A stretch of DNA of 28,497 nucleotides, from the IMG/VR virus record IMGVR_UViG_3300043419_000597, positions 1-28,497 of that record; one strand, 5' to 3'. Source of the stretch: a virus. Shown one piece after another: positions 3-21,422 of the stretch (the stretch's first letter is position 1; the number at the start of each line of letters is the position of its first letter). Under the pieces are notes generated by a model that did no database searches, was not told the origin of the DNA, and saw only the letters and a list, made by a program, of their open reading frames with translations. A program made the position numbers and the translations under genes.

Positions 3-377
3 TATTTCCGTGAAATAAAACAAGATAGCGTTTATAGAATTTCTCCACATAAACATGCTCAGACATTGGGTGTTGGTATTATATACTTAACAGTTCCAAA
101 AAGAAATGCTGGTAATTTAGTTATGTTGGATCCACGTGGTGGTTGTTTATGGCATAATCAATTCACACCATTCAAACGAGTTGCTGTTGAGCGTGGCTTA
201 ATGGTTATTCATCCAGGATATCTTGTTCACTTCGTTGAACCAACTGACTATGATAACGCTAAGTTTGATTATCGTTTAGCTGTAATCTCAAACATTCATT
301 GGAAACACTCTGACTTTATTAAAGAATTAGAAAAGAATGAAGATGCAGTATATAAAATGGGATCTATTGAAGTATGA
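3..377 (+). CDS. 2OG-Fe(II) oxygenase-like protein, 3' part only
   Basis: The open frame runs in from the left edge, so the N-terminus is missing; a TTG at 66 is only an internal codon. The visible 124 residues contain an HxH pair (HKHAQ) followed by a strand-rich stretch (GVGIIYLTVP), then LDPRGG and later GYLVHFVEP with a second conserved His. This is the layout of the 2OG-Fe(II) oxygenase family common in T4-like aquatic phages (Pfam 2OG-FeII_Oxy_5 type), in which His-x-Asp/His and a distal His bind iron. Family assignment is by motif; the substrate is unknown. It overlaps the next gene by ATGA (374-377), so the two are probably translated together. Confidence 0.65.
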   Translation, partial: YFREIKQDSVYRISPHKHAQTLGVGIIYLTVPKRNAGNLVMLDPRGGCLWHNQFTPFKRVAVERGLMVIHPGYLVHFVEPTDYDNAKFDYRLAVISNIHWKHSDFIKELEKNEDAVYKMGSIEV

Positions 378-1819
378 GTTATTTCTTTGACGAATATCAT
401 GAGTTTATTGATCAAGACCCGAGAAAGATTCGCGATGTAACTACAGTATCGTCAGAATCTCTTCATAAGCGATGTTCAGTTTTACTACCACAATGGTTAG
501 TTGAAGGTAAAACTATATTAGATCTTGGTCACTGTATGGGTGCTTTTGGTCATTGGGCATTATCTCATGGAGCTAAACACTATACTGGTGTTGATATACA
601 AAAAGATTTCTGTTATAAATCAGGATTACTGTTATCTAAACATTGGGAAGCAGATAAATTTAAAATTGTATGTTCAGATTTGATACAGCACTTAAATACA
701 TGTCAAGAAAAATATGATATTATAATAGCATGCGGTTCTATACATGGATGTTCAGACCCATTCGAGATATTGAAAGCCATCACTAATAAAAGTAATCAAT
801 ACGTAGTGATAGAAACTCTTGATATACATGAGGTAGATTACCCAACTATATTATTCAAACCATATAGAATGAATAGTAAATACTCTAAGTATCATTACAC
901 TGGATGGAGCCCAATTATTGGATTTAATGCTCTACGCACAGTTATGAATGAGTATGGTTATTCAATTCATGGGGATAGAATATATCCAGAACGAATTGTT
1001 GATGGACATGATTCTTATAATGATATCATACAGCATGCAGATCGAAGTAAATTAGATAGTTTACCGAACAGATTTATGGTTAGATATGTCAAAGATTCTA
1101 CCATTAAAAAATCTTTACACAGTAAAATTATTACAAACAACGTTAATACATCTACAGCATCCAACGCTAAACATAACTATATTATAGTTAAACCAGAGAT
1201 GTGGAAGTTTGATGATGCAATAGCTAAAAGATTTCAAGAAGAAGCCACTAATAACATACCAGACTATGAGCGTGTTATCGACATTTGTTTGAGTATAGCG
1301 AAGATTAAAGTTGATTCTGAATCTACTATTGTTGATGTTGGGTCAGCATTAGGGCATACTATGAATAAGTTTGTTACCAATGGATTTAATAATGTCATTG
1401 GTATTGAATCTAGCCAAGCTATGATTGATAACTCACAGTATAAAGACAAAGTGATTATTTCTGATGTTTATCCGTCAGAATTAAAATCTGATTTTGTTAT
1501 GGCTAACTGGACATTACATTTTGTAGTTGAAAGAAAGAAATACATTCAAGATGTTTATGATTCATTATCAGATGGTGGAGTTTTTATTATATCTGATAAG
1601 ACTTCTCAAACAGAAGAAATAAAAGAATTATACTATGACTTCAAACGACAAAATGGTGTTTCTGATGAATATATCTATGAGAAAGAAAAGAAATTACAAG
1701 GATATATGCACCCATACCCAGCCGATTGGTATATTGAAACATTAAAAGATATCGGGTTTAAAAACATACAGATCATTAACGCTAAACTTGGATTCGTTAC
1801 ATTCTACTGCGAAAAATGA
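374..1819 (+). CDS. two-domain SAM methyltransferase, CmoA-like C-terminal half
   Basis: 481 residues with two Rossmann methyltransferase domains. Domain 1 (about 30-240) has motif I ILDLGHCMGAFG at 48-59 and GVDI at 72-75. Domain 2 (about 275-481) resembles CmoA, the carboxy-SAM synthase of the tRNA cmo5U34 pathway, over its whole length: FDDAIAKRF, PDYERVI, DVGSALG (321-327), IESSQAMI, MANWTLHF and YDFKRQNG. By remembered E. coli CmoA numbering, Tyr39 and Asn132 have counterparts (Tyr298, Asn378). Arg199, which holds the extra carboxylate, aligns with Glu438, so carboxy-SAM use is doubtful. Domain 1 recalls CmoB in a few places (HGCSDPFEIL, VVIETL), but weakly. It sits in an ATGA-coupled run between two oxygenase-like genes. 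The fold is confident; the substrate (tRNA, other RNA, protein or small molecule) is open. Confidence 0.8.
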   Translation: MSYFFDEYHEFIDQDPRKIRDVTTVSSESLHKRCSVLLPQWLVEGKTILDLGHCMGAFGHWALSHGAKHYTGVDIQKDFCYKSGLLLSKHWEADKFKIVCSDLIQHLNTCQEKYDIIIACGSIHGCSDPFEILKAITNKSNQYVVIETLDIHEVDYPTILFKPYRMNSKYSKYHYTGWSPIIGFNALRTVMNEYGYSIHGDRIYPERIVDGHDSYNDIIQHADRSKLDSLPNRFMVRYVKDSTIKKSLHSKIITNNVNTSTASNAKHNYIIVKPEMWKFDDAIAKRFQEEATNNIPDYERVIDICLSIAKIKVDSESTIVDVGSALGHTMNKFVTNGFNNVIGIESSQAMIDNSQYKDKVIISDVYPSELKSDFVMANWTLHFVVERKKYIQDVYDSLSDGGVFIISDKTSQTEEIKELYYDFKRQNGVSDEYIYEKEKKLQGYMHPYPADWYIETLKDIGFKNIQIINAKLGFVTFYCEK

Positions 1820-2448
1820 ATTATACAGTATCAGAAATATTCCCAACACCGATATATCAATCTACCATAGATTTGCAGATATTGAGAAAGTATGAACAAG
1901 AACTCAGTTCTTTATGTGAGAAAAACACGTTATCTAAAAACTTCTATAACAATGACCATGTAATTGATTATGAACGTAGACATGTCCTAGATAAATTTCC
2001 TGAGTTAAAGAATCATCTACAGGAACACCTCAATATATTTTGTAAAAATATCATCGGCGAGCGTGAAGATAAGTTCTCGTTATACATAACTACATCATGG
2101 TGTGTCGGTATAAATCCTGGATTCTCTCAACAGGTTCATCAACATGAGAACTCAATCGTTTCTGGTGTAATGTATTTTATGAACGAAGATGATGCATCAG
2201 AAATAAGTTTCGTAAGAGATGTTTCCGTATCATTTAATTCTCAGTTGAATTTAAATCCATCACATGGAACTAAATTCACATACAAAGAGAATAGAATAAA
2301 ACCAAAGAATGGTTCTTTACTATTGTTTCCTGCGCACCTAAAACATAAAGTGTTGGAGCATAATGGAAAACAAAGAAGAAATTGCTTGGCGTTTGATTCT
2401 TTCGTCAATGGAACTATCGGTGATAGAAGAACATTACTTACAATATGA
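1816..2448 (+). CDS. 2OG-Fe(II) oxygenase-like protein
   Basis: 210 residues. It opens with the phrase typical of this phage family, SEIFPTPIYQSTID. It carries QVHQHENSIVSGVMYF (HxH at 108-110), then FPAHLKHKVLEHNGKQRR near the C-terminus, which supplies the distal His and the Arg that binds 2-oxoglutarate. The family (2OG-FeII_Oxy_5 type) is frequent in T4-like phages of cyanobacteria and other aquatic bacteria; substrates are mostly unknown, with protein hydroxylation usually supposed. ATGA overlaps join it to the methyltransferase upstream and the membrane protein downstream. Confidence 0.75.
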   Translation: MNYTVSEIFPTPIYQSTIDLQILRKYEQELSSLCEKNTLSKNFYNNDHVIDYERRHVLDKFPELKNHLQEHLNIFCKNIIGEREDKFSLYITTSWCVGINPGFSQQVHQHENSIVSGVMYFMNEDDASEISFVRDVSVSFNSQLNLNPSHGTKFTYKENRIKPKNGSLLLFPAHLKHKVLEHNGKQRRNCLAFDSFVNGTIGDRRTLLTI

Positions 2449-4865: not shown

Positions 4866-4978
4866 GAACACCAATATATAAGTGGCAGATGATATTTCAT
4901 CCTAGGCATCATAAATACGTTATGGTGAAACTATATTTAAATATAACAGCAAAAGGTGTATTTTGGAGAATAAAATGA
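4862..4978 (+). CDS. 38-residue basic protein, coupled on both sides
   Basis: Reads MRTPIYKWQMIFHPRHH... and ends in WRIK. The ATG overlaps the zinc-ribbon stop as ATGA, and its own stop overlaps the ATG of the TctC-like gene as ATGA. That double junction is the main evidence that it is translated; no family is recognised. It has many aromatic and basic residues and no signal peptide. It also spans a possible late-promoter motif (4910-4917), so it could instead be only a leader for the exported protein. Confidence 0.5.
   Translation: MRTPIYKWQMIFHPRHHKYVMVKLYLNITAKGVFWRIK
4910..4917 (+). promoter_or_regulatory. possible T4-type late promoter (CATAAATA)
   Basis: CATAAATA fits the NATAAATA late-promoter form known in T4-like aquatic phages and lies about 57 bp upstream of the TctC-like gene. 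The window encodes gp33, so a late system exists. A single 8-bp match in AT-rich DNA is weak evidence. Confidence 0.3.
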
Positions 4979-5937
4979 AAAATGTATTACGTAGTTTAGT
5001 CGCTGGTCTGGCATGCATTAGTTTTAGTGCTATCGCAGCAGAGACAATCGTTGTTACTAGCCCATACGGTGCTGGTCATGGAGCAACAGCATCAGAATTT
5101 AAAATCCTAGACGCTGCCAATAAAAATCAGTCTAAGTATAACTTCATTATGGAGTTTAAGCCAGGAGCACAACAAACGCTGGCATTAAAAGCAGTTAATG
5201 CTGAACCACAAAATAGACTTGGTATTATCGCAGCATCTATCGTGGAAAACACTAGAGCTGGAACTATCAACGCCAAGGACTATGTTCCTGTCGCTGCGTT
5301 GGGTGAAGCATGCTGGGTTGTAGTAATGAACGTAGGCGACCAAGCTAGAGGTCTAGATTCTCTACGTCAGGTTCGTAAGACACGCGACGAATTGGTTATC
5401 GGTGGTGTCGCATTCGGTAATGCTGCTCACCTAACTGGATTGCAGATTGCAGAAAAATATGGATTCAAGGTTCGCTATGTTCCATTTAAATCAAACACCG
5501 AAGCAATGATTCAGGGCATGGTTGGCGATAGCTCTGTTAACATGGTAATTGTTCAGGTTAAAGACTTTGAGGCATTTAAACCTAAACAAGATAAACTACA
5601 AATGTTGGCATCTTCATGCCCAGTGCGTATTGCAGCAGCACCAAAAGTAAGTACACTAAAAGAACAGGGTATTGCTGCACCATACATTATGAATGCTGTA
5701 GTTGCACATGTGAACATGGATGCTGCCAAGCGTTATGAAATCGAAAAGATTTTTGAACAGGCTATGAGAGATGTTGGTGCTAAAAGCATTGCTGAAATGT
5801 CTGACATGAGCCCACCAATTTTCAGAAATTTATCTGTGAAGAAATGGTATGATGATTCATATAAGTTGATTGATACACTGTTGGATAAGCATGCGACAGC
5901 TATCGAAAACAACCGTAACGGAAACCCATCAAAATAA
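4975..5937 (+). CDS. TctC/Bug-family periplasmic solute-binding protein
   Basis: 320 residues from the ATG at 4975, with GGAG 6-7 nt upstream; a TTG at 4963 is less likely. Residues 1-22 form a clear Sec signal peptide (MKNVLRSLVAGLACISFSAIAA). The mature part follows the tripartite tricarboxylate transporter receptor pattern: TIVVTSPYGAG, DYVPVAALGEACWVVVMN, LVIGGVAFGNAAHLTGLQIA, VRYVPFKSNTEAMIQGMVG, and a C-terminal helix pair. Known relatives bind carboxylates in the periplasm and hand them to TctA/TctB membrane subunits, which are absent here. In a phage it would be an auxiliary metabolic gene using host permeases, or a decoy receptor. The ligand cannot be read from the sequence. TAATG coupling joins it to the next gene. 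Confidence 0.8.
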   Translation: MKNVLRSLVAGLACISFSAIAAETIVVTSPYGAGHGATASEFKILDAANKNQSKYNFIMEFKPGAQQTLALKAVNAEPQNRLGIIAASIVENTRAGTINAKDYVPVAALGEACWVVVMNVGDQARGLDSLRQVRKTRDELVIGGVAFGNAAHLTGLQIAEKYGFKVRYVPFKSNTEAMIQGMVGDSSVNMVIVQVKDFEAFKPKQDKLQMLASSCPVRIAAAPKVSTLKEQGIAAPYIMNAVVAHVNMDAAKRYEIEKIFEQAMRDVGAKSIAEMSDMSPPIFRNLSVKKWYDDSYKLIDTLLDKHATAIENNRNGNPSK

Positions 5938-7166: not shown

Positions 7167-7466
7167 ATGAAACCATTTGACCCAGTGTTCGACACATATG
7201 ACTACGCAATCGGTGGTAAGATGGTTGTTGGTAAAGCAACTCTCGGTGACGAATATAGTCAATTGATGAAGACTGATAGCGAAGCAAGACTGCGAGTGAA
7301 GAACGAACTGATACAACAGATGGCTCAGTACATTCTCGAGAATAACTTGGTTGAGTTCACACAGTACACAGATCCAATCACTTTCAATACAGTGGTTCAT
7401 GTCCGTGCTTATCTGGCACCAAACGAGCAGGTCAAACTATTACGAGTTGCAAATAAAATCCTATGA
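7167..7466 (+). CDS. conserved phage protein of unknown function
   Basis: 99 residues, soluble, mixed helix and strand, no Cys. VKNELIQQMAQYILENN is an amphipathic helix, followed by a strand-rich stretch (TDPITFNTVVHVRAYL). It starts three bases after the acb1-like stop and ends with an ATGA overlap into a zinc-binding gene. It appears to be part of the same transcription unit. No family is recognised. Confidence 0.65.
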   Translation: MKPFDPVFDTYDYAIGGKMVVGKATLGDEYSQLMKTDSEARLRVKNELIQQMAQYILENNLVEFTQYTDPITFNTVVHVRAYLAPNEQVKLLRVANKIL

Positions 7467-7654
7467 AATGCTGGTGTGAAGAATGCACTCCAATCAACTG
7501 GCTCAAGCCAGAGACAGTGCGAATGATTCTCTGTCCCGACTGTGGCAATAAACGCTGTCCAAAGGCGAATGACCATAGAAACACATGCACTCGCTCTAAT
7601 GAGGTTGGACAAGTAGGTTCCTCATGGGAACACATTAAACCACCAAAACCATAA
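7463..7654 (+). CDS. 63-residue cysteine-rich zinc-finger protein
   Basis: MKCWCEEC at the start, then LCPDCGNKRCPKANDH and NTC give eight Cys and a His, enough for two zinc sites. The order CWCEEC ... CPxCGNKRCPxAxDHxxxC is familiar from small phage proteins of unknown role. It is ATGA-coupled to the previous gene and is the last gene before the terminator at 7653, whose stem begins in its stop codon. Confidence 0.7.
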   Translation: MKCWCEECTPINWLKPETVRMILCPDCGNKRCPKANDHRNTCTRSNEVGQVGSSWEHIKPPKP

Positions 7655-7679
7655 CCCTACGTCCTGTAGGGTTATTTTC
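7653..7679 (+). terminator. rho-independent terminator
   Basis: Stem AACCCTAC (7653-7660) pairs with GTAGGGTT (7666-7673) around a 5-base loop, followed by ATTTTCT. It closes the 4.4-7.65 kb unit. Confidence 0.75.
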
Positions 7680-7701
7680 TCCTTTAAAATCAACGACTTA
7701 C

Positions 7702-7720
7702 AAGGGCTAAAATAGTCCTT
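7702..7720. repeat. hairpin abutting the -35 box
   Basis: AAGGGCT (7702-7708) pairs with AGTCCTT (7714-7720) around AAAAT, with one G-T pair. Its right arm runs into the -35 box of the next promoter. It may be an operator, a second terminator, or chance. Confidence 0.35.
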
Positions 7721-7747
7721 TACAATAATTCACTTTTCAGGCATAAT
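7719..7747 (+). promoter_or_regulatory. sigma70-like promoter
   Basis: TTTACA (7719-7724), 17 bp, CATAAT (7742-7747). The predicted start near 7754 gives a leader of about 24 nt containing AAAAGGAA before the ATG at 7778. Confidence 0.7.
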
Positions 7748-7777
7748 TCTATTATAGGATAAGAAAAGGAAATAAAA

Positions 7778-7975
7778 ATGTTTGAATCAAAAGTGTTGAA
7801 TGTGGTTGAAAAAGTTCTCGGTGACGTGAAAGCTGGTTTTACTTGTGGTTGCTTGTTTGTTGAGTGCTCTGTTCCTGATGCCGTGAAACTTGAAACTGCT
7901 CTTTTGGCTGAAAAACAGTTCGGTGGAATTATTCTGAGTCGTGTCGGTGGTGAATCTGCCTACGATTTCGTTTAA
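7778..7975 (+). CDS. small protein of unknown function
   Basis: 65 residues (MFESKVLNVVEKVLGDVKAG...), a helix followed by a Cys-containing strand segment (FTCGCLFVECSVPD). First gene behind its own promoter and a good ribosome binding site. Its stop codon is part of the TAAGGAG that serves the next gene. No family is recognised. Confidence 0.65.
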   Translation: MFESKVLNVVEKVLGDVKAGFTCGCLFVECSVPDAVKLETALLAEKQFGGIILSRVGGESAYDFV

Positions 7976-7985
7976 GGAGTTGGCC

Positions 7986-8186
7986 ATGAAAATCGAAATT
8001 GGTTCTAGAATTTACTACGAGTCTGCTGCTGGTGCAATCGTGGGTGTTGTGAAAAATATTGTTCTCGATCAGAATGCTGCTGGTGAGACAATTCCTTGGA
8101 TGATTATCCAACCTAAACGTGGTTCTGGTTTTATGATGTGTGCATCTAACAGTTATTTGAAGATGATGAAAGTTGAGGTATTGTGA
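7986..8186 (+). CDS. small beta-rich protein of unknown function
   Basis: 66 residues from the ATG at 7986, chosen because AAGGAG lies 7-8 nt upstream; an upstream GTG in the same frame would overlap the previous gene. KIEIGSRIYYESAAGAIVGVVKNIVL and PWMIIQPKRG suggest a small SH3-like beta barrel, which is inference from the strand pattern. It overlaps the next gene as TGATG. Confidence 0.65.
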   Translation: MKIEIGSRIYYESAAGAIVGVVKNIVLDQNAAGETIPWMIIQPKRGSGFMMCASNSYLKMMKVEVL

Positions 8187-8416
8187 TGAGTTACGCTGAA
8201 GCCAAATTGGCAACTGAACATTTTGACAAAGACCATGGTTCGTTCTTCGATCGTGGTTCAGCTGATAGCTACTATGGTCGTCCCCGTAACCCACATCGTG
8301 GCGGTGTCGGTGGTATGAGTGGTCCACGAATTGAAGCTGTGAATCCTGCAGACATTGAAGCATACCATGCTGGTTATGACTTCAACGAAATGTATGGAGA
8401 CAAAAAGCAATGGTAA
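8186..8416 (+). CDS. small Gly/Arg/His-containing protein
   Basis: 76 residues from the ATG in TGATG (8184-8188). It has an N-terminal helix, a Gly-rich central part (NPHRGGVGGMSGPR) and AYHAGYDFNEMYGDKKQW at the end. The pattern of a short helix around a Gly-rich loop recurs in small phage proteins, but I cannot name a family. It overlaps the following membrane-protein gene by 7 nt. Confidence 0.6.
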   Translation: MSYAEAKLATEHFDKDHGSFFDRGSADSYYGRPRNPHRGGVGGMSGPRIEAVNPADIEAYHAGYDFNEMYGDKKQW

Positions 8417-8625
8417 CAACTGTGTTGAAGTGGCTGGGAACTGGGTTCACATTGGCTGGTGCACTGGCTACATCGCTGGCTCTAGATCCGCTAAATGTTT
8501 ATCTGTTCAATGCTGGTGCCGTAACATGGCTGGCAGCTGCAGTCCGAATGCGTGAAAGTAGTCTGATTGTTGTGAACGCTGGTCTACTGGCAATTTATGT
8601 GTATGGTTTGATTTATCGTCTATAA
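8410..8625 (+). CDS. small integral membrane protein
   Basis: 71 residues with two or three hydrophobic segments (GTGFTLAGALATSLAL, VYLFNAGAVTWLAAAV, LIVVNAGLLAIYVYGLIY) split by a short RMRES loop. It has no signal cleavage site and is probably in the inner membrane. It overlaps the preceding stop by 7 nt (ATGGTAA). It could be holin-like by size, but no lysis gene is adjacent. Confidence 0.65.
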   Translation: MVTTVLKWLGTGFTLAGALATSLALDPLNVYLFNAGAVTWLAAAVRMRESSLIVVNAGLLAIYVYGLIYRL

Positions 8626-8635
8626 GGAAATTATC

Positions 8636-9100
8636 ATGGGTCTCGATATGTATCTGTCCGCAAAGAAGTATATGAGCAAGTATTTCGATACTGCCGATGT
8701 GGAACGAATCAACAAAGTGAATGAAATCTTCGGTGTCACTGGCATTGAGGATGGCGATTATGGTGCTCAGGAAGTAACTTTCCGTGTAGCCTACTGGCGT
8801 AAAGCCAATGCAATCCATGCATGGTTTGTGAAGAACTGTCAGGATGGCGAGGACGACTGTCGCGAAGCATGGGTTTCCCGTGATCAATTGCAAGAACTTA
8901 TTACGCTATGTGAAACTGTGTTGGCGGACATGTCCAGGGCAGAACAACTGCTCCCTGCTCAGAGTGGATTCTTCTTCGGTGGAACTGACTACGACGAGTG
9001 GTATAAACAGGATCTGACATATACCGTTCAGCGTCTCAATAAGATTCTGTCTGACCCAGCAATGAATATGTGCGATCTCTACTATCACTCGAGTTGGTAA
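8636..9100 (+). CDS. conserved 'MGLDMYL' family protein
   Basis: 154 residues opening MGLDMYLSAKKY, with VAYWRKANAIHAWFVKNCQ in the middle and SGFFFGGTDYDEWY later. This set marks a family common in phages and prophages, sometimes labelled phosphoglycerate kinase without basis; its function is unknown. AAGGAA precedes the ATG at a good distance. TAATG joins it to the SLOG gene. Confidence 0.8.
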   Translation: MGLDMYLSAKKYMSKYFDTADVERINKVNEIFGVTGIEDGDYGAQEVTFRVAYWRKANAIHAWFVKNCQDGEDDCREAWVSRDQLQELITLCETVLADMSRAEQLLPAQSGFFFGGTDYDEWYKQDLTYTVQRLNKILSDPAMNMCDLYYHSSW

Positions 9101-20556: not shown

Positions 20557-20757
20557 ATGTTATATGTTGATTATAATTTTGAACTAAATGATAATATAAT
20601 TATATTCGATCCTGACTTAAAGTTGACTACTCAAACTAATGAAAAGCAGTGGGGTAATCTACCAAATAGTTGGAAAGAAGGAGATATGTTTAAACTTATC
20701 ACAGGTGCTAACGGTAACGTGACTTTGGTTAAAGTTACAACTGATGGTAAGATGTAA
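20557..20757 (+). CDS. small acidic protein of unknown function
   Basis: 66 residues from the ATG at 20557, with GGAG 8 nt upstream; a TTG at 20527 overlapping the previous stop is less likely. LYVDYNFELNDNIIIFDPDL and FKLITGANGNVTLVKVTT are strand-rich. It ends just before the tmRNA acceptor segment. If the -35/-10 pair over its start is the active promoter, it would be translated only from longer upstream transcripts. Confidence 0.55.
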   Translation: MLYVDYNFELNDNIIIFDPDLKLTTQTNEKQWGNLPNSWKEGDMFKLITGANGNVTLVKVTTDGKM

Positions 20758-20760
20758 AGA

Positions 20761-20825
20761 ATTGTTGTAATCCCTTCAAAACGAAGGCATGTTGGACGTG
20801 GGTTCGATTCCCACCTGCTCCACCA
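20761..20825 (+). ncRNA. ssrA: permuted tmRNA, acceptor (3') piece
   Basis: Contains the tRNA-like T arm GTGGG-TTCGATT-CCCAC (20798-20814), the 3' acceptor strand CTGCTCC (20815-20821), a discriminator A and an encoded CCA (20823-20825). A hairpin (CCTTC 20773-20777 / GAAGG 20783-20787) and CATGTTG (20088-type P2 strand at 20888 minus 100, i.e. 20788-20794) precede it. No 5' tRNA half lies upstream. The matching half, GGGGCAG, is found downstream at 20963-20969 and pairs at all seven positions, including G3-U70, the alanine identity pair. The 5' end is approximate. Confidence 0.85.
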
Positions 20826-20835
20826 AAAGAGATTT

Positions 20836-20961
20836 ATGGAAAACTTAGTTTTATTGTTGTTGATTGTTGTACTACACGTTTATTGGATTTATTCTGTATT
20901 GACGTATGATTGGAGCGACTTTGATAATGATCAAGAACAAGCTAAGAAAGATCTTTTTTGA
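20836..20961 (+). CDS. 41-residue membrane protein inside the tmRNA intervening segment
   Basis: MENLVLLLLIVVLHVYWIYS forms one transmembrane helix, then VLTYDWSDFDNDQEQAKKDLF, an acidic tail. It begins 10 bases after the encoded CCA and its TGA ends one base before the mature 5' end of the coding piece, so it fills the whole spacer. AAGAGA before the ATG is a modest ribosome binding site. It may be a real gene or chance; its clear membrane-protein character favours a gene. Confidence 0.5.
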   Translation: MENLVLLLLIVVLHVYWIYSVLTYDWSDFDNDQEQAKKDLF

Positions 20962-20962
20962 T

Positions 20963-21130
20963 GGGGCAGACCTGGTTTCGACAGCGTGAGATAGTGGAGA
21001 CGGCAACACGGTAGGCGATGACCGTAAATCAAGCAAATCAAGTAAACGCAAACGATGAAGTTTACGCATTGGCAGCTTAACCGCTGACTAGGGTTTCGGT
21101 TGGTTTCCTCGTAACAGAATAACCAACCAC
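20963..21130 (+). ncRNA. ssrA: permuted tmRNA, coding (5') piece
   Basis: Starts GGGGCAGACCTGGTTTCGAC, the usual tmRNA 5' end and D-like loop. CAGCGTG (20982-20988) pairs with CATGTTG of the acceptor piece to form P2. The tag frame begins at resume codon GCA (21048) and reads ANDEVYALAA before TAA (21078-21080), a normal proteolysis tag ending in ALAA. Downstream, AACCG/CGGTT and the 8-bp GGTTGGTT (21098-21105) / AACCAACC (21121-21128) provide pseudoknot and end helices. It should rescue stalled ribosomes and tag incomplete proteins. The 3' end is approximate. Confidence 0.88.
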
Positions 21131-21146
21131 TTACATTAAGGAAAAT

Positions 21147-21422
21147 ATGAATATCGTACCATTAAAGAATAAAGTTTTAGTAGCTGAGAACGTAAGTGAA
21201 CGTAAAACTGAATCTGGAATTATCCTAGACGGAGCTAACTCAGTTGCTATGTCTAAAACAGCAACTGTTTTATCTATCGGTCCAGATGTAGTTGACGTTA
21301 AAGTCGGAGATGTAATTTATCTAGAATGGCCAAAGGGACAGATGGTAAAGATCGGCGATGCACAGCGAGTTATTATTGAAGATAAGTATATTGTAGCTGT
21401 ATTAGAAAAGGAGACAGTATGA
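21147..21422 (+). CDS. GroES/Cpn10-like co-chaperonin
   Basis: 91 residues. It has VPLKNKVLVAENVSERKTES then GIIL (the mobile-loop region), TATVLSIGPDVVDVKVGDVI, and IIEDKYIVAVLE at the end, the full Cpn10 order at normal length. The usual hydrophobic Gly-Ile-Val/Leu tripeptide that contacts GroEL is present as GIIL. Like T4 gp31 it probably directs host GroEL to fold phage proteins such as the capsid. AAGG precedes the ATG just after the tmRNA. It overlaps the next gene by ATGA. Confidence 0.85.
   Translation: MNIVPLKNKVLVAENVSERKTESGIILDGANSVAMSKTATVLSIGPDVVDVKVGDVIYLEWPKGQMVKIGDAQRVIIEDKYIVAVLEKETV

Follow-up and report, generated by a model that had tools for sequence, protein, structure and literature searches.

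It was confirmed that the open reading frame at 374..1819 (+) encodes two class I SAM-enzyme domains in one uninterrupted frame of 481 aa with an ATG start; the window, that is, the whole stretch of DNA analysed, is a 28.5-kb viral fragment that begins inside the oxygenase gene lying upstream. We tentatively favor the view that these two domains form a fused donor-maker/transferase module, in which the partners of a pair such as CmoA-CmoB or TglE-TglF would be contained in one protein. Domain 1 (residues 1-250; 374..1123, +) showed the class I methyltransferase fold in its matches to Pfam Methyltransf_12/25/11, and domain 2 (residues 271-481; 1184..1816, +) was CmoA-like by phrog_4752, TIGR00740, the structures 1im8/4gek and hhalign to CmoA. 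Conserved SAM-binding motifs were present, and the frame overlapped each of its two neighbours by 4 bases. The AlphaFold model of the fusion (pLDDT 87, pTM 0.53) supports two predicted folded domains, the relative placement of the domains being without support in the model.

When domain 2 was compared with the CmoA profile TIGR00740, residues 271-474 covered positions 9-232 of 239 (E 1.5e-21, 77 bits), and the CmoA-like stretch runs almost from end to end, much as originally predicted; with the isolated domain, the next unrelated NCBIfam family reached only 28 bits. The CmoA structures PDB 1im8 and 4gek were matched with E about 1e-14 to 1e-13 and phrog_4752 with E 3e-45, and in hhalign CmoA was the closest family (E 1e-32). 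Judged from these profiles, the CmoA match of domain 2 is far beyond chance. The 77 bits lay below the curated TIGR00740 cut-off of 193.3 bits, and so did the 115.6 bits of the proven CmoA of phage S-B43, indicating that this cut-off is strict for phage proteins. The equivalents of CmoA Tyr39, Asp62, Gly64, Asn132, Phe137 and Lys165 were retained in domain 2, and Lys198 was found in every tabulated row.

In the tree, 34 domain-2 rows were set apart from 16 CmoA rows with a support of 100/99 and a long branch. All domain-2 members shared two family-wide markers, Ser66 being replaced by Ala and Gln136 by His, whereas the seven phage CmoA-type proteins tested kept Ser66 in 7/7 and Gln136 in 6/7 cases. 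The separate clade and the Ala/His markers argue that domain 2 represents a sister family of CmoA and lies outside CmoA proper. A new use of the fold, raised in the original prediction as a possibility, agrees with a clade distinct from CmoA.

The carboxylate of carboxy-SAM is bound by Arg199 of CmoA through a salt bridge (PMC3663124), which is the role of carboxylate holder that the original prediction gave to this residue. In an ungapped block of the alignment with the E. coli protein (IYEKEKKL in the window, ISQKRSML in E. coli), Glu438 (codon 1685-1687, +) stood at the Arg199 position between Lys437 and Lys439, as had been predicted; the motif IYEKEKKLQGYM (residues 434-445; 1673..1708, +) was located by the alignment with CmoA. 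The further claim that the lost Arg199 meant a lost carboxy-SAM had to be given up. The CmoA of the Synechococcus phage S-B43 is a very active carboxy-SAM synthase with a kcat of 2.33 per s, compared with 0.23 per s for E. coli CmoA (PMC12783734), and its gene (from MN018232.1) reads IMDKEKEL at this block, with Glu in the same K-E-K setting. Glu was also found at this site in a related RN05-S protein and in an S-CRM01 protein. Because a proven synthase is likewise without the Arg, its loss is uninformative on function, and the change from Arg to Glu is not by itself a removal of carboxy-SAM synthesis. The rule of thumb that Arg199 alone divides carboxy-SAM synthases from methyltransferases is hereby corrected.

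Among bacterial CmoA of the tRNA type, Arg was found by pattern in 19/23 of those sampled, and the remaining four read K-R by eye. In the domain-2 family, R was absent from the 35 viral rows (E in 25, K in 6, A in 2, Q and V in one each), while the nine cellular rows had R in four and E, Y, A, Q and D in one each; the cellular Arg carriers were three bacterial fusions and one domain-2-only relative. When the tree was rooted with CmoA, a mostly Arg-bearing bacterial group formed the first branch inside the family. Since bacterial members carry Arg and branch first, Arg is most simply regarded as ancestral at this site, and probably is so as far as the tree tells. The natural occurrence of R, Y, K, E, A, Q, V and D states within one family makes the question of the Arg199 site directly testable. 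A separate observation was made with the CmoA of Staphylococcus phage PhiSepi-HH3 (L040 4116-4802), in which Ser occupies the Arg199 site and whose gene lies beside an HhaI-type DNA methylase; it is likely a carboxy-SAM synthase with a further substitution at this site.

The predicted fusion to a second methyltransferase domain was borne out by the Pfam matches of domain 1, but the slight CmoB character ascribed to that domain dwindled to near background. Against the CmoB models of NCBIfam (TIGR00452/PRK15068) it reached 29 bits with a cut-off of 209, and hhalign gave E 9e-11 for domain 1 with CmoB, 1e-9 for CmoA with CmoB and 1e-8 for domain 1 with CmoA, so that the CmoB likeness appears to be near the background between pairs of class I methyltransferases. 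Domain 1 was also considered as a CmoB with CmoA and domain 2 as the baselines; the likeness was barely higher, and membership was not established. At its N-terminus CmoB has some 100 residues that are peculiar to it, and its Lys91 is the residue deciding the choice of donor (PMC4482062); in the alignments, no residue of domain 1 was placed at Lys91. Domain 1 has only about 42 residues ahead of its Rossmann core, and the N-terminal region of CmoB is absent. Near-invariant residues of domain 1, found in at least 24 of 25 fusions, were D15, R17, R20, D50, G52, G56 and R233; Arg233 (1070..1072, +) fell at CmoB Arg315 in a forced global alignment only, and this placement is weak. The position of CmoB Tyr200 was occupied by His124 (743..745, +) in the window and by Tyr in five bacterial fusions and several viral relatives.

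The fusion was found to be carried by freshwater phages and also by a few bacteria. Alignment-based scans of IMG/VR gave 25 confirmed loci, with more obtained via domain 1, and 20 full-length viral fusions including that of the window were aligned at 36-56% identity. The bacterial members were obtained by scanning genomes and by targeted searches; the fusion was present in full in 5 of the 369 genomes searched (E below 1e-130), the genomes searched belonging to the class of a Gammaproteobacterial MAG. Several family members sit on bacterial contigs amid housekeeping genes. Near-copies exist among the viral loci (L029 of L016 was left out, L024 of L022 was counted), so the numbers of members are not numbers of events. 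When the phylum to which the L035 genome belongs was searched for domain 2, no further members turned up, and a fusion search in a broader phylum sample gave nothing beyond the genome used as its centre. In a literature search of a limited collection, no paper on a phage CmoA-CmoB fusion was found.

The two domains were also observed as adjacent ORFs (L007/L008, L028, L030, L117, L122 and L134-L137) and in reversed order, with domain 2 before domain 1 (L032, and L034 with TGA read as glycine); loci with a single domain were L033, L035, L036, L074, L133 and L138. Fusion or adjacency in nearly every locus, in either order, is, on the evidence of gene arrangement, the pattern of a working pair. 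No stand-alone CmoA was detected in the 12 relative contigs that were also searched for a C5-cytosine methyltransferase, the single match in each being the fusion's own domain 2. L034 lies on a Patescibacteria MAG contig, where the domain-2 frame (174-1703) contains three in-frame TGA codons read as glycine (code 25).

The oxygenase genes predicted on both sides of the fusion were confirmed. The upstream 2OG-Fe(II) oxygenase (3..377, +), whose 5′ end is cut by the contig end, matched phrog_81 (E 2e-7) and PF13759, and the second one (1816..2448, +) belonged to the TIGR02466 family with 79.6 bits (cut-off 62.5) and also matched PF13759. A TIGR02466-type oxygenase lay directly upstream with an overlap of 1-4 bases in nine viral loci including the window, and PhyH oxygenases, a different family, flanked a divergent fusion on both sides in L140. 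The enrichment of oxygenases near the fusion as compared with far from it was modest (p 0.03), the co-occurrence statistics being weak. Further downstream, a TctC-like periplasmic solute-binding protein was encoded at 4963..5937 (+) (PF03401, E 2e-9); its cluster (cluster 16) occurred near the fusion in six loci, and a link to the fusion may be inferred. TctC-type proteins near the fusion were also seen in L013 (7833-8747 and 9040-9921) and in L032, where TctA too is close to the separate domains (L032 3378-4325 and 6435-7880); TctC and TctA are phage-borne parts of a tricarboxylate transporter. MFS transporters were found near some loci of the family. The window additionally carries at 20711-21171 (+) a tmRNA gene that is permuted and of the betaproteobacterial type, with the tag ANDEVYALAA (RF01850 161.8 bits, RF04321 150.2 bits), and ARAGORN found no tRNA gene in the window, the tmRNA only.

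Many loci had asparagine-synthetase-like PP-loop ligases in the vicinity of the module; beside the window's own fusion no ligase was seen. For one ligase group, hhalign gave E 3e-9 with CmoY, 7e-7 with AsnB, 2e-4 with QueC and 2e-3 with TtcA, which places it nearer to CmoY than to the three other PP-loop families, yet only distantly so at the level of profiles. Ligases co-occurred with members having R, Y, K, E and A at the Arg199 site. PP-loop ligases were not significantly enriched near the fusion as compared with far from it (p 0.08). A tblastn search of named phages with a ligase as the query gave no match. In two bacterial genomes a PP-loop ligase adjoins the module, within a row consisting of a cupin, the fusion, the asparagine-synthetase-like ligase and a small unknown protein (L080 1313-5147, L089 7122-11282). 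This row looks like an undescribed biosynthetic operon. It is conserved between the two, and an NRAMP-like transporter lies alongside. In the viral locus L133 a ligase, a cupin and domain 1 stand in a row, the cupins being homologous to the bacterial ones.

Other relatives had metabolic neighbours. An acyl-CoA ligase, an SDR and a BKACE protein lay beside the fusion in four viral loci (L010 6232-9303 and 11370-12020; also L011, L012 and L013), with a MaoC hydratase in 3/4 of them; this cluster resembles a partial beta-oxidation or acyl-modification pathway. Tryptophan halogenase, carbamoyltransferase, B12-radical-SAM or class IV aminotransferase genes were found in other viral loci, and in the genome G429 the fusion is followed by an AMP-binding enzyme, a PLP decarboxylase, a second AMP-binding-enzyme-like protein and radical-SAM genes. 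The small phage contig L006 carries the halogenase (PF04820) and the carbamoyltransferase (PF16861) at 1255-2883 and 7360-8994 together with the fusion and five oxygenase-cluster genes. Taken from predicted genes, the context of the family is that of metabolite biosynthesis, not of tRNA modification.

We read the fusion as an alkylation enzyme for a small molecule (or another non-tRNA substrate) within biosynthesis-like clusters. In the proposed course, the adjacent 2OG-Fe(II) oxygenase would hydroxylate the substrate, most likely a small molecule; domain 2 would bind SAM and, acting like CmoA, may turn it into carboxy-SAM or a donor of a related kind; domain 1 would then move the alkyl group onto the hydroxylated substrate; and where a ligase is present, the asparagine-synthetase-like PP-loop enzyme would amidate the carboxylate so introduced, in the way that CmoY acts on phage DNA. 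Carboxy-SAM chemistry by domain 2 is possible. Such a pair of donor-maker and transferase is favored by the fused, adjacent or reversed domains, by the closeness of domain 2 to CmoA, the Arg of bacterial members and the K-E-K of a proven synthase, and by the upstream oxygenases and nearby ligases. Against it stand the separate long-branch clade with the Ser66-to-Ala and Gln136-to-His changes, a domain 1 scarcely more CmoB-like than CmoA is, the single-domain loci, and the p values of 0.08 for ligases and 0.03 for oxygenases.

A close rival, which we consider a real if somewhat doubtful possibility, is that both domains are ordinary SAM methyltransferases, domain 2 having kept the CmoA fold and not the CmoA reaction. 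They might act on two sites of one small molecule or carrier-bound intermediate, or one of them might methylate a carboxylate. Domain 2 gave secondary matches to trans-aconitate and juvenile hormone acid methyltransferases, and these enzymes methylate a carboxylate. The loss of Arg in all 35 viral members, the family-wide change of both marker residues, the separate clade and the presence of TctC/TctA and MFS transporters in the neighbourhood of some loci would also suit two methyltransferases; however, tight coupling in both orders is more like a donor-maker with its transferase, a proven synthase is also without Arg, and the basal bacterial members keep it. We think it unlikely that domain 2 makes for domain 1 a modified SAM other than carboxy-SAM, with the Arg199-site residue setting the donor. 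It is rather improbable that domain 2 supplies carboxy-SAM for phage DNA hypermodification as in CmoA-CmoX-CmoY: phage CmoA usually lies beside CmoX and CmoY (PMC12783734) and Asn-synthetase-like ligases occur near the module, but C5-cytosine methyltransferase (PF00145) was absent from 12 relative contigs of 53-231 kb, which makes DNA modification unlikely, the family lies outside the CmoA clade, and members occur on bacterial contigs amid housekeeping genes. Most improbable of all is the original proposal that a phage CmoA-CmoB fusion modifies the wobble uridine of tRNA: although the best NCBIfam matches of the window's two domains were CmoA and CmoB and the 2OG oxygenases could give the hydroxyl as TrhO and TrhP do, the N-terminal region of CmoB is missing (PMC4482062), the CmoB likeness is near background, the relatives' neighbours are acyl-CoA ligase, BKACE, MaoC, halogenase, carbamoyltransferase and B12-radical-SAM genes, the window has a tmRNA only, and a real CmoB is also present in 3/5 bacterial fusion genomes (G102, G145 and G429).

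Should domain 2 produce a modified SAM, the protein would represent a natural fusion of donor-maker and transferase, carried by phages into their hosts within gene clusters of the metabolite type; with a donor other than carboxy-SAM, it would be a self-contained enzyme of unusual alkyl transfer common to phages and bacteria.

With CmoA (TIGR00740; PDB 4gek, 1im8), domain 2 shares the fold by sequence profile, the N-terminal WxFD..PxY motif and the K198 helix; it differs in its clade, in Ala for Ser66 and His for Gln136, in E/K/A/Q/V at the Arg199 site of viral members, in being about 10 residues shorter ahead of the NWTLHF motif and in being joined to another domain. The CmoA of the S-B43 system (CmoA-CmoX-CmoY, PMC12783734) is likewise phage-borne with K-E-K for K-R-S, and an amide-ligase gene lies near many fusion relatives; the S-B43 protein, however, is a lone domain encoded close to a DNA C5-carboxymethyltransferase, a gene absent from the contigs of 12 fusion relatives. 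Domain 1 has in common with the carboxymethyltransferases CmoB and TglF (PMC4482062, PMC10491745) the class I fold and, in bacterial fusions, the Tyr200 equivalent (His124 in the window), but it is without the N-terminal CmoB domain and its likeness is near background. By profile, domain 2 belongs to phrog_4752, 'tRNA methyltransferase', a family name that is an annotation only and does not describe the fusion.
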